From the NCBI GenBank assembly GCA_015055545.1, contig SVHY01000001.1, positions 1 to 64,000 of the forward strand: 64,000 nucleotides of DNA, read 5' to 3'. How positions within the stretch are numbered: position 1 is the first letter of the stretch; the number at the start of each line of letters is the position of its first letter. This document shows positions 2,204 through 56,216 of the stretch, one piece after another. The DNA comes from Clostridiales bacterium. GTDB taxonomy: Bacteria; Bacillota; Clostridia; Christensenellales; Borkfalkiaceae. Under the pieces are notes generated by a model. That model was not told the origin of the DNA. It did not search any database and was given only the letters and a program-made list of their open reading frames with translations. The position numbers and the translations under genes were made by a program.

Positions 2204-3838
2204 TTACTTATTGAAATTATCTTTCAAGGACACGATTTCGGAAAGAACCAAACCGCCCTTTTCGTCCGTGCACTTTTTATAATACCCCACGCGCATCAGC
2301 TGGAACGCTTTATTTTCCGCGCTTTCAAACAGATACGGTTCGGCTTTACCGTAGTAGATATGTTCGCTATCCAAATTCATACGTTCGCCGAAGTCCTGTC
2401 CTGCGTACTGTGCGTCGTTGAGCAAATAGCTGTATCGACGGATTTCCGCGTCCACGCCCGTTTTACCGTCCACCCATTGAATCGTACCTTTCACTTTAAT
2501 ACCGCTTGTATCGCTAGCAGAGCGGCTGTTTTCCACGTACGAGCATTTGAGTTCGACCACTTCGCCGTTCTCGTCTTTCACCACCTCGTCGCAATGGATA
2601 ATATACGCGCCTTTAAGCCGCACGTACCCGTCCAGTTTCAAACGCTGATATTTAGGCGGAGGGTCGAGCGAGAAATCTGCTTTATCGATATACACCACGT
2701 TAGAAAACGCGACTTGCCGCGTACCCAGTTCGGGCTTTAACGGGTGCAACGCCGTTTCCAGCATTTCTTCGCCTTGGTAGTTGGTAATGGTAACTTTCAA
2801 CGGCTCTAAAACCGCCATCGCGCGTTCCGCGTTCTCGTTGAGATTGTCGCGAATACACGCTTCCAAATAGGAAAGCTGACACTCCGAATTCGCCTTTACC
2901 ACCCCGATTTTCGTACAGAAATCCAAAAGCGCTTCGGGGGGAACGCCGCGATTGCGAAGTCCAGCAACCGTCGGCATACGCGGGTCGTCCCAACCGCGCA
3001 CGTGCCCTTCTTCCACGAGCTTTTTCAAATACCGCTTACTCATTACGGTATTCGTAATAGCAAGCCGCGCAAACTCGATTTGACGGGGTTTTGGAGCAAA
3101 ACCAAGCTGAATCCCCACCCAGTCGTACAAAGGACGGTGGTCCTCAAATTCGAGCGTACAAAGCGAATGGGTAACCCCTTGCAAATAATCGCAAATAGGG
3201 TGCGCGTAGTCGTACATAGGATAGATACACCACGTATCGCCCGTGCGGTGGTGCGTAGCGCGTAAGATGCGGTAAATAACGGGGTCGCGCATGTTCATAT
3301 TCGGCGACGCCATATCGATTTTCGCGCGCAAGCACTTACTACCGTCGGGGTATTTTCCCGCTTTCATTTCACGGAAGAGCTGCAAATTTTCTTCCACGCT
3401 ACGGTTTCTGTACGGGCTTTCTTTACCCGCTTCGGTGAGCGTACCGCGCGTAGCGGAAATTTCTTCGGGCGAGAGGTCGCACACGAACGCCTTACCGTCT
3501 TTGATAAGCGTTTCAGCATACTCGTAGATAACAGGGAAAAAGTCGGAGGCGTACACTTCTTTCGCCCACTCGTAGCCTACCCATTCGATATCTTTACGAA
3601 TGGCGTCTACGAACTCCGTCTTTTCCTTGGACGGGTTAGTGTCGTCGAAAAACAGGTTACACTTGCCCCCGTATTTTTTTGCCGTACCGAAATTGACGAG
3701 CATACTTTTAATATGTCCTATATGCAAATACCCGTTGGGTTCGGGCGGGAAACGGGTTTGTACCGCCGAAATCTTTCCCGCGTCGATATCGTCGTTAATA
3801 ATCTGTTCAATAAAATTCGTTGCTTCAATCTTTTCCAT
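2204..3838 (-). CDS. glnS: Glutaminyl-tRNA synthetase
   Basis: The 544-aa class I synthetase charges tRNA-Gln directly with glutamine. PPEPNGYLHIGH (residues 31-42) carries the HIGH motif and VMSKR (265-269) the KMSKS-type loop; the C-terminal part is the two beta-barrel anticodon-binding region of GlnRS. The proline-rich signature and the length separate GlnRS from GluRS. Many Firmicutes lack GlnRS and use GatCAB amidation instead; some Clostridia acquired glnS. Whether gatCAB is also present cannot be seen here. SD GAGAAGAG precedes the ATG. Confidence 0.95.
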   Translation of the reverse strand: MEKIEATNFIEQIINDDIDAGKISAVQTRFPPEPNGYLHIGHIKSMLVNFGTAKKYGGKCNLFFDDTNPSKEKTEFVDAIRKDIEWVGYEWAKEVYASDFFPVIYEYAETLIKDGKAFVCDLSPEEISATRGTLTEAGKESPYRNRSVEENLQLFREMKAGKYPDGSKCLRAKIDMASPNMNMRDPVIYRILRATHHRTGDTWCIYPMYDYAHPICDYLQGVTHSLCTLEFEDHRPLYDWVGIQLGFAPKPRQIEFARLAITNTVMSKRYLKKLVEEGHVRGWDDPRMPTVAGLRNRGVPPEALLDFCTKIGVVKANSECQLSYLEACIRDNLNENAERAMAVLEPLKVTITNYQGEEMLETALHPLKPELGTRQVAFSNVVYIDKADFSLDPPPKYQRLKLDGYVRLKGAYIIHCDEVVKDENGEVVELKCSYVENSRSASDTSGIKVKGTIQWVDGKTGVDAEIRRYSYLLNDAQYAGQDFGERMNLDSEHIYYGKAEPYLFESAENKAFQLMRVGYYKKCTDEKGGLVLSEIVSLKDNFNK

Positions 3839-22381: not shown

Positions 22382-22693
22382 GAAAAAATAATCTCTTTCA
22401 CACGCTAAAAAACGCATAAAAGAGACGAAGACATTTCTCCGCGGTACCACTCTGTTTGGCGGATAACCCACCCACTCGTGTCTTGGAAAGACTTACTCTG
22501 TAACGGGAGCACCCGTCCGAATCTACTAAGCGTTTTTTCACAGCCGTTCTGTCGGCGGCTCGGGGAGGAGCTATATTCCGCGGCCCGTATTGACTCGCAC
22601 CCACCGTCAACTCTCTGAAAATCGGATTCCGAACGGATTTTTATTCCCGTCATAGCCTTTAAAATGAAATTTTTCTCTATTATAAAATAGATT
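22382..22693 (-). promoter_or_regulatory. T-box riboswitch controlling leuA and the BCAA operon
   Basis: On the minus strand, stem I carries GCTATGACGGGAA at its base, the CAGAGAG and GGTGGGTGCGAGTC distal-loop motifs, and a probable specifier CUC (Leu) placed one base before the closing stem (AGCUCCUCCCC). The antiterminator T-box sequence GAGTGGTACCGCGGAG lies at about 22438-22453. The terminator pairs CTCTTTTATGCG with AGCGTGTGAAAGAG (22393-22424), followed by TTATTTTTT. Uncharged tRNA-Leu would stabilise the antiterminator. Presence of a T-box is near certain; the specifier call is an inference from alignment with the glyQS pattern. Confidence 0.93.
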
Positions 22694-50728: not shown

Positions 50729-50911
50729 TTATTTGGTCATTTCTTCAAGAGCTCTCTTGTATGCACATTTTGCGCAAAGCTCTTCTTTAATATCTTCGTA
50801 ATAAGCTACGGTTGCATCGTCCGACTTACATTCGTCGCACTTACCGTTTTTACAACCTGCAAAGCAGAACACCGTTGCCAAAGCAAACACTACACAAAGA
50901 AATTTTTTCAT
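50729..50911 (-). CDS. Small cysteine-rich lipoprotein, 60 aa
   Basis: A signal peptide (MKKFLCVVFALATVFCF) ends in the lipobox FAGC. The ~40-residue mature part has CDEC and CAKC pairs, which could bind zinc or form disulfides. I do not recognise a family. It has its own TTGACA-N17-TATAAT promoter (50944-50972) and GGAGG SD, so it is very likely a real gene. A CCGCG...CGCGG hairpin with a T run (about 50685-50705) ends it. Confidence 0.78.
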   Translation of the reverse strand: MKKFLCVVFALATVFCFAGCKNGKCDECKSDDATVAYYEDIKEELCAKCAYKRALEEMTK

Positions 50912-50972: not shown

Positions 50973-51126
50973 GCACTCAAAAGCATTTTTTATCACAAAA
51001 ACAACACAATTGTCGCTTTTTGCCAAAAAACGCAAAATTTTTTATCAAACTTAACAAAAACTGTTGTAAATATAACAAAATAAAATTCTTTAAAAATTTT
51101 TTATCATTTTATTTACTTTTTGTTTG

Positions 51127-51189
51127 TTATATGTTAAAATATATTTGTAAATAAGTTGTGGCGACACGACGAATAAATATGCTCATCAT
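51127..51189 (-). CDS. Possible 20-aa peptide
   Basis: A short ORF (MMSIFIRRVATTYLQIYFNI) follows AAGGGGG at good spacing on the minus strand. No promoter is clear, and a hairpin (51212-51244) lies upstream. It may be chance in AT-rich DNA. The stretch 50973-51120 otherwise shows nothing. Confidence 0.25.
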   Translation of the reverse strand: MMSIFIRRVATTYLQIYFNI

Positions 51190-51211
51190 TTTCCCCCTTA
51201 TCATATATTTG

Positions 51212-51244
51212 GTAAACGCCTTGGACTTTTGTCCAAGGCGTTTA
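51212..51244. other. Isolated 11-13 bp hairpin
   Basis: AAACGCCTTGGAC-TTTT-GTCCAAGGCGTTT. Its stem resembles the terminator at 51343-51383 (GCCTTGG/CCAAGGC) but a long T run is lacking on either strand. Role unclear. Confidence 0.5.
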
Positions 51245-51342: not shown

Positions 51343-51383
51343 ACAAAATAATAGCCTTGGCAACCTGCCAAGGCGTTATTTTC
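51343..51383 (-). terminator. Terminator of the ~690-nt transcript
   Basis: On the minus strand GCCTTGGCA-GGT-TGCCAAGGC is followed by TATTATTTTG. Nine-bp perfect stem. Confidence 0.85.
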
Positions 51384-51482
51384 ATATTCAGTTGTAAGAA
51401 CACGTTTCTATTCTTACGCTCCGCGTTTATTCGGACTTAATTCCATTGCGGCTATGCCGCGCGCTTCTTTTGCGGATCTTTT

Positions 51483-51512
51483 TTATACGTGCTCTCCGCT
51501 TAAATCGTTCAT
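51483..51512 (-). CDS. Micro-ORF 3 in the 690-nt transcript (9 aa)
   Basis: MNDLSGEHV preceded by AAAAGGGAG. No family known. It may be a translated signal peptide-like product, a ribosome-loading decoy, or chance within a structured RNA. Confidence 0.25.
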   Translation of the reverse strand: MNDLSGEHV

Positions 51513-51528
51513 TGGACCGTTCTCCCTT

Positions 51529-51576
51529 TTAATCTTCTTTCTTGAAATACCTACCAGTTGAATTCAATACAGTCAT
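51529..51576 (-). CDS. Micro-ORF 2 in the 690-nt transcript (15 aa)
   Basis: MTVLNSTGRYFKKED preceded by AAGGAGG at 9 nt. The SD is among the strongest in the window, which is the main reason to list it. No family known. Confidence 0.3.
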   Translation of the reverse strand: MTVLNSTGRYFKKED

Positions 51577-51622
51577 TTTCCTGTACCTCCTTCTCTTTAC
51601 TCTCACTACCGACTCCCGTCGG

Positions 51623-51670
51623 CTAACGCTCGTACGTTGGAGTATCTCCTTTTGAAGCAGTTACAATCAT
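51623..51670 (-). CDS. Micro-ORF 1 in the 690-nt transcript (15 aa)
   Basis: MIVTASKGDTPTYER preceded by GAAGGAGGAG. Same length as micro-ORF 2. No family known; coding status uncertain. Confidence 0.3.
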   Translation of the reverse strand: MIVTASKGDTPTYER

Positions 51671-52044
51671 CTTTATTGCTCCTCCTTCATGATTTTCCCG
51701 TATCTATCGCTCTACGGGCTGCGCGTTCCGTGTATATGTGCTTTGGAATTTCGTCAAATTCCGCTTGACGCATACGCATCGGTTCTGTTGTTCAATATCG
51801 ATATTTTTTCTTTTTTCCTTTTTAGACTTCCGTCTGCGGTCTGTCAGACTTCCGCCCTAACCTGGCCGGGAATCATCGCTTTTCGTACCCCCCTTTCCTT
51901 TTTTTCTTTGCCTTTCGCCGTATCCCTACGGCACTTTGCCGAACCCTTTTCGGCTGCGCTTTACTTGTGCATCGGCGTTCTCTCTTTACATTTTATTTGA
52001 AAGTTTCAAACATTTTTTGTTTGTTTCTTTCTCTTTGTACTTCT

Positions 52045-52072
52045 ATTATAGCACAAATTTTTCATTTGTCAA
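52045..52072 (-). promoter_or_regulatory. Promoter of the ~690-nt transcript
   Basis: TTGACA and TATAAT, 16 nt apart, both full consensus, facing the ornate region. Transcription should begin near 52038. Confidence 0.8.
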
Positions 52073-52121
52073 GCGTTTTTCGAAAAAAAATTGAAAATTT
52101 TTGAAAATTTTTTTTGAACAT

Positions 52122-55959: not shown

Positions 55960-56216
55960 ATGTAAAAACGCAAAAGCGTTTTTACAGTGATATAAATTCG
56001 CCAAAAGCGAATTTGTGATATGTTGCTACGCAACGTGATATGCCCCTGCGGGGCGTGATATACGCCTTGCGGCGCGTGGTGGCTGTATTATAAATTATCC
56101 CACAACGTTTTGCCCACGGCAAAACATATCACTTTTTCGCAAGAAAAAATCTCACTCCACGAAAGCGGAATTTCACATTACGCAAAGCGTAATATATCAC
56201 TGTTTTTCAGCTCCCG
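55960..56216. repeat. Mirror-spaced hairpin array (TauE pair)
   Basis: Left half palindromes, each followed by GTGATAT: GTAAAAACGCaaaaGCGTTTTTAC, AAATTCGCcaaaaGCGAATTT, GTTGctacGCAAC, GCCCctgcGGGGC. Right half palindromes, each followed by ATATCAC or a close variant: GTTTTGCCcacGGCAAAAC, TTTTTCgcaaGAAAAA, TTACGCaaaGCGTAA. The centre GTATTATAAATTATCCCACA resembles the core of the other arrays. Confidence 0.88.

Follow-up and report, generated by a model that had tools for sequence, protein, structure and literature searches.

ROOL, GOLLD and OLE resemble the RNA analysed here in size class, in being free-standing and in their conserved structure, and the function of ROOL and GOLLD is unknown (PMC12286853). 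ROOL and GOLLD are RNAs of prophages and phages and are often found near tRNA islands, while the RNA analysed here adjoins housekeeping genes; it also carries an array of micro-ORFs, which is no stated feature of ROOL, GOLLD or OLE. The dual-function sRNAs SgrS/SgrT and RNAIII/hld each contain just one ORF, tens of codons long. They are likewise both structured or regulatory and translated (reviewed in PMC10339803), whereas the present RNA has two to six ORFs of 2-23 codons each (one to four of them of the B, C and D type described below), with a conserved minigene and an ORF lying within the structural core. The minigenes lambda bar and axe-txe mg2 also consist of a two- to three-codon ORF behind a Shine-Dalgarno (SD) sequence, and mg2 acts in cis, possibly by protecting its mRNA (PMC8708949). 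The minigene found here is in contrast an element of a free-standing RNA and is not followed by a protein gene. Leader peptides and attenuators share with this RNA short ORFs able to remodel hairpins, and SDs hidden in hairpins, but the RNA is without a conserved downstream gene. tmRNA (RF00023) is likewise structured with a short translated frame, but no Rfam tmRNA match is found here. As far as we can tell the components (minigenes, SD hairpins, coupling and dual-function RNAs) are known, while their combination in a free-standing RNA is new. No description of the RNA family was found in the open-access literature, the supplements of large motif surveys such as PMC8040213 being beyond reach, and the family is apparently undescribed.

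The locus is encoded on the minus strand of the window, that is, the whole stretch of 64,000 nucleotides that was analysed, and all elements of the RNA are given in coordinates of this strand. A promoter and a terminator delimit about 690 nt (52072-51345). The consensus promoter noted in the preliminary description, TTGACA-N16-TATAAT at 52072-52045, matches at 12/12 positions and has in addition a TG before the -10 box (extended -10). It is near-perfect also in those homologues whose upstream sequence reaches far enough, and is preceded by an UP-element-like region of A/T-tracts (52073-52114), with the same A/T blocks before the promoter in relatives. The RNA is apparently strongly transcribed. 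Perfect promoters seem to be frequent in the source genome, since seven others (TTGACA-N16-18-TATAAT) were found in the 64-kb window while 0.04 were expected in shuffles. These are situated at 135 (-), 7558 (+), 8711 (+), 25757 (-), 25767 (+), 27960 (+) and 50972 (-), the 25757/25767 promoters forming a closely spaced divergent pair. The intrinsic terminator (51345-51380) has the 9-bp core described earlier, at 51374-51354, and extends to 51380-51345; in homologues a terminator hairpin is found after the ACAACUGAAUA motif. No ORF of 60 codons is present on the minus strand within 52072-51345, and the frame of a 103-aa ORF on the opposite strand is not kept, only fragments of it being found in the comparison; the absence of an ordinary gene was thus correctly noted. 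The window RNA folds more stably than its shuffles (z -6.9; -3.0 for the 3' part alone).

Some other elements were observed in the window. A 60-aa lipoprotein-like ORF, MKKFLCVVFALATVFCFAGC..., is found at 50729-50911 (-) with its own perfect promoter (50972-50944), and relatives of it lie near the RNA in seven loci, the window included. Most genomes of the genus contain the 25-mer CTCATCATTTTCCCCCTTATCATAT (51182-51206, +) without a single change; other families of the order have one to three copies each, differing at 0-2 positions, while the reversed control gave zero. On the plus strand (51112-51243) a promoter-like site (51112-51140) lies upstream of the 25-mer and a GC hairpin (51213-51243) downstream. 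No Rfam family matched at this place, and the arrangement resembles that of a small RNA whose C-rich seed complements SD sequences. Two Gut-1 RNAs (RF01706) in opposite orientation are found 55 nt apart, at 55985-56066 (+) and 56121-56202 (-), and a T-box leader (RF00230) at 22418-22662 (-) is barely over the threshold.

A cmscan against Rfam 15 at gathering score matched no known family in the window RNA or in 26 homologous loci, and relaxed thresholds gave only chance-level matches, no family matching the RNA of the window or of the 26 relatives. The covariance models of ROOL, GOLLD, OLE and raiA likewise had no match in the window copy or in these 26 loci. A tmRNA replacement was rejected since the genome has a separate tmRNA (RF00023) at G000:C47:11160-11525, and together with the missing Rfam/ARAGORN tmRNA match this agrees with the earlier statement that the RNA is not a tmRNA.

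Most members of the window's genus proved to have the locus when related genomes were searched at the DNA level. Three covariance models were then used: R1 for the 5' module, R2 for the 3' domain, and the broader R3. R1 places the family in 51 of the 57 genomes of the genus, including 12/12 of those that are at least 90% complete, and also found it in genus g45. R2 found each of the 55 loci where it was expected, including 16 that had not gone into the model, and extends the range to genera g1, g4, g43, g45 and g46, all of one bacterial family. Outside this family R3 gave no match in an order sample of 396 genomes or a class sample of 341 genomes, at filters strict enough that distant copies may be missed. 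The matches in G059 (5' hairpin-like) and G091 from the first DNA search turned out to be unrelated sequence; R2 afterwards located the genuine G059 copy. The named records with matches are rumen and hindgut Clostridia MAGs. The upstream neighbour is often an mreB-like gene on the same strand (29 loci), and in the window's genus the RNA usually follows it. As a rule there is one copy per genome; G490 (genus g4) has two diverged copies, L149 and L161. In L035 (G030, about 3060-3350) R1 matches the 5' module twice in one RNA, the second time with the minigene MNK-stop, an apparent internal duplication. A mobile or phage element was rejected because an exact 23-nt motif is absent from viral contigs and there is one locus per genome as a rule, the motif being a single one from one ORF, so that divergent phage copies could escape.

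The RNA is about 250-880 nt long across species. In the window's genus the order from the 5' end is a ACAAAAAAUGU hairpin, ORF A, two hairpins of which the second has a GGGA loop, ORF B, in the long forms more hairpins and ORF C, then a second GGGA hairpin, ORF D, ORF E, the 3' domain, ACAACUGAAUA and the terminator. Short forms of about 390-500 nt are without the C region. The 5' part differs in genus g46 and in most g4 copies, where no minigene is seen, while the D-E pair, the 3' domain, ACAACUGAAUA and the promoter are kept. In five g46 loci (L151, L154, L156, L158 and L160) ORF A is replaced by a long conserved 5' region with GCGNCGGUUUCCNCCGG..AAGUGCACAGGGAA..CGCAAGGG, which is probably another folded domain.

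The 5' module begins with a covarying hairpin, GAAAG...CUUUC (51999-52031), whose loop, ACAAAAAAUGU, is near-invariant. Downstream of ORF A follow the hairpins GCCGA...UCGGC (51938-51954; helix 3), in which 4/5 pairs are changed on both sides, and GCCGUA-GGGA-UACGGC with a GNRA-type loop (51917-51932; helix 4), in which 5/6 are. Altogether 90.6% of cells pair in the module and 13 of the 21 pairs have changed on both sides (0/500 shuffles). The alignments of this module and of the 3' domain were partly fitted to the model, but the signal is abolished when partners are shifted by 1-3 columns. ORF A (51961-51972) is the minigene AUG CAC AAG UAA, encoding MHK, in a conserved CCRAUG context with a weak SD. 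Its frame is closed by a stop after 2-4 codons in 55/55 loci, against 21/55 and 4/55 for the other two frames, with many different combinations of codons and with use of each of the three stops. In genera g1 and g45 ORF A is a minigene of 2-4 codons with an SD, the SD match often being just 4-5 nt. ORF A is not essential to the family since it is not seen in most g4 or in g46 copies and lacks an AUG in G014. A single long ORF running from the 5' AUGUUU to ORF A was rejected, the frames being random.

The middle region contains ORF B, MIPGQVRAEV-stop (51844-51876), behind an SD-like AAAGGGGGG at 51896-51888, with homologues such as MIPSHLEAEA-stop; pairing of this SD with the ORF's own codons is weakly supported (63/5000 permutations, relatedness ignored). 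Two hairpins were read from the sequence, GGAAUUUGACGAAAUUCC (51745-51762), whose loop UUGACGAA recurs in other long-form homologues, and CCCGUA-GAGCGAUAGA-UACGGG (51697-51718), with similar ones in such homologues. ORF C, MIVTASKGDTPTYER (51623-51670), has the SD GAAGGAGGAGC at 51688-51678. The distance from its AUG to a CCRACG motif is 18, 21, 27, 30, 42, 45 or 48 nt, every one in frame, and its SD pairs with its own following codons (0/5000 permutations, relatedness ignored). Its end is abutted by the hairpin CCGAC-GGGA-GUCGG (51609-51622), which is found after ORF C in many homologues; both hairpins with GGGA loops described earlier (51932-51917 and 51622-51609) are thus present. For the middle ORF of genus g45 too the SD or start codon would lie in a hairpin, copies reading CAUAUCG-SD-CGAUAUG. 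ORF D, MTVLNSTGRYFKKED (51529-51576), is found in nearly all loci with the SD GAAGGAGGUAC at 51593-51583, and here too the SD pairs with the codons that follow it (0/5000 permutations, relatedness ignored). ORFs C and D are the two micro-ORFs of 15 codons that had been pointed out, but this length carries no meaning, as homologues span 8-23 codons.

ORF E, MNDLSGEHV-stop (51483-51512), has the context GUCCAAUG and starts close to the end of ORF D. In 75/79 loci the stop codon of ORF D falls -11 to +18 nt from where ORF E begins (11/104 for other frames), and the four exceptions are three read-through fusions with E and one locus without D. In genus g4 the two ORFs overlap as AUGA. P1, the helix that closes the 3' structured domain (51385-51515), has the codons of ORF E as its 5' strand. 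It pairs 51494-51487 with 51405-51398 and P2 pairs 51478-51472 with 51425-51419, while P3 (51462-51448) and P4 (51444-51433) are hairpins. Between P1 and the terminator lies ACAACUGAAUA (51385-51395), a near-invariant single-stranded motif found in all 55 loci examined and in other genera. In the domain 82.7% of cells form standard pairs and 211 cells have changed on both sides against 73.9 in shuffles (0/500); over five genera the values are 83.1% pairs and 163 both-side changes (0/500). An independent duplex test of P1, between ORF E codons and the nucleotides before ACAACUGAAUA, gave a mean of -12.5 kcal/mol with the own partner and -8.1 with swapped partners (0/10000 permutations, relatedness ignored). 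The P1 strand corresponds to codons 5-8 or so of ORF E, and at the P1 of the window the register is one base off the reading frame, so that the pairing rather than the peptide is kept. The stop of ORF E was dropped as coding evidence since other frames also stop in the A-rich sequence (52, 51 and 41 of 55).

SD-plus-AUG pairs are in excess when 37 homologues are taken together (113 against 10.6 expected in shuffles); taken singly, the window copy shows a weak excess (2 against 0.36 expected; 118/2000 shuffles). A conserved ORF inside a structured RNA, translated by comparative evidence, is thus found here as in the dual-function sRNAs, and we are confident from the comparison of sequences that the family is both structured and translated. 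The preliminary description left a choice between a large non-coding RNA and a polycistronic micropeptide RNA and proposed a search for homologues and covariation. Relatives were found in most of the genus, with stems of the 5' module and the 3' domain that covary far beyond shuffles; signs of structure and of translation are both conserved, and the word non-coding turned out to be wrong.

The best explanation, which we put forward tentatively, may be a free-standing translation-gated RNA, the fold of which is set by ribosomes passing serial micro-ORFs. The SD or start codon of ORFs C and D, and of the middle ORF of g45, would sit in a hairpin. A ribosome finishing ORF D would cover the start of ORF E and initiate there by coupling, and its passage along ORF E would pull P1 apart. 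The 3' domain and ACAACUGAAUA would then alternate between two states depending on running ribosomes, and the open or closed domain would bind a putative protein or RNA partner, the switch and the partner being guesses. ACAACUGAAUA and the 5' loop are candidate base-pairing sites for target mRNAs. Located close to the 5' end, the minigene would likewise serve to load the RNA or protect it. We hold it possible, with greater reserve, that the micro-ORFs in series act as the moving parts of a device, in which ribosomes on the minigene and on the coupled D-E pair would set the fold of a trans-acting RNA, so that this RNA would read out the translation state of the cell. Sequence comparison supports the structure, the reading frames, the D-E coupling geometry and the ORF E/P1 overlap, while translation in cells, switching and a trans-acting output are what we infer. 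A translation-gated RNA is favoured because the coupling and the overlap naturally expose the 3' domain to passing ribosomes. The pN/pS of 0.67-1.04 in the window's genus leaves the peptides nearly free to change, and this indicates that translation as such is preserved more than its products. Against gating stands that ORF A is dispensable to the family, as seen in most g4 and g46 copies and in G014, that the stop of ORF E does not discriminate between frames, and that ORF D of g46 is under strong selection at the peptide level, which gating does not need.

This selection is the strongest argument for the RNA being a micropeptide messenger, that is, a small polycistronic mRNA where the peptides, above all that of ORF D, are the product and act for instance by stalling or signalling, while the hairpins merely tune translation and stability. 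The core [KR]SDLRKL of g46 ORF D has a pN/pS of 0.07-0.09, compared to 1.5 and 5.7 in the other frames, and is kept with many synonymous codons, including six for Arg. In L043 tandem ORFs have a common RRGETRAG with only synonymous differences, and conserved frames, SDs and coupling are what a messenger would show as well. However, the peptides are wholly different among genera (RYFNKE, RILARK, SDLRKL and FQALN), a minigene of 2-4 codons is too short to encode a specific effector, and RNA pairing accounts for some of the conserved peptide stretches. The proposal that peptides are the product therefore fits one ORF in one genus, g46, but not the window's genus (pN/pS about 0.7-1.0), and we regard a messenger as an unlikely account of the family.

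Minigenes cause peptidyl-tRNA drop-off in E. coli. The RNA could be a ribosome or initiation sink, an abundant transcript whose multiple SD-AUG sites and very short ORFs would sequester 30S subunits, initiator tRNA or, by drop-off from minigenes, peptidyl-tRNA. The perfect promoter with its A/T-rich upstream region, SD-AUG pairs at about ten times chance across homologues and the strict minigene length in all 55 loci would suit such a role. On the other hand, the SDs of ORFs C and D are partly hidden in hairpins, contrary to what a sink needs, the elaborate covarying 3' domain is left unexplained, ORF A is not found in most g4 and g46 copies, and there is as a rule one copy per genome; a sink thus seems rather improbable.

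That the RNA is a cis-acting leader or attenuator, where translation of the micro-ORFs would govern terminator read-through into a downstream gene, is very unlikely. The ORFs resemble those of leader peptides, and ORF E overlaps a helix upstream of the terminator. However, no recurrent downstream gene was found, the largest groups comprising 7-8 of 55 loci, which indicates that the RNA is a stand-alone gene, and in the window the gene that comes next on this strand is served by a separate perfect promoter (50972-50944). Least probable of all, to the point of being hardly tenable, is a purely non-coding RNA in which SD-AUG-stop strings arise by chance from purine-rich structural sequence, since the strong structural conservation and the indiscriminate stop of ORF E are outweighed by the invariably short ORF A, the kept frame of ORF C, the D-E coupling and the codon pattern in g46.

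All near-complete genomes of a gut genus carry the family, which was detected in five genera, and it blurs the boundary between coding and non-coding RNA, escaping both ORF finders and Rfam. It is a natural system for asking what genes of two to ten codons do. It is also a test case for translation itself, rather than its product, as the selected function, and for an RNA that would work through the transit of ribosomes.
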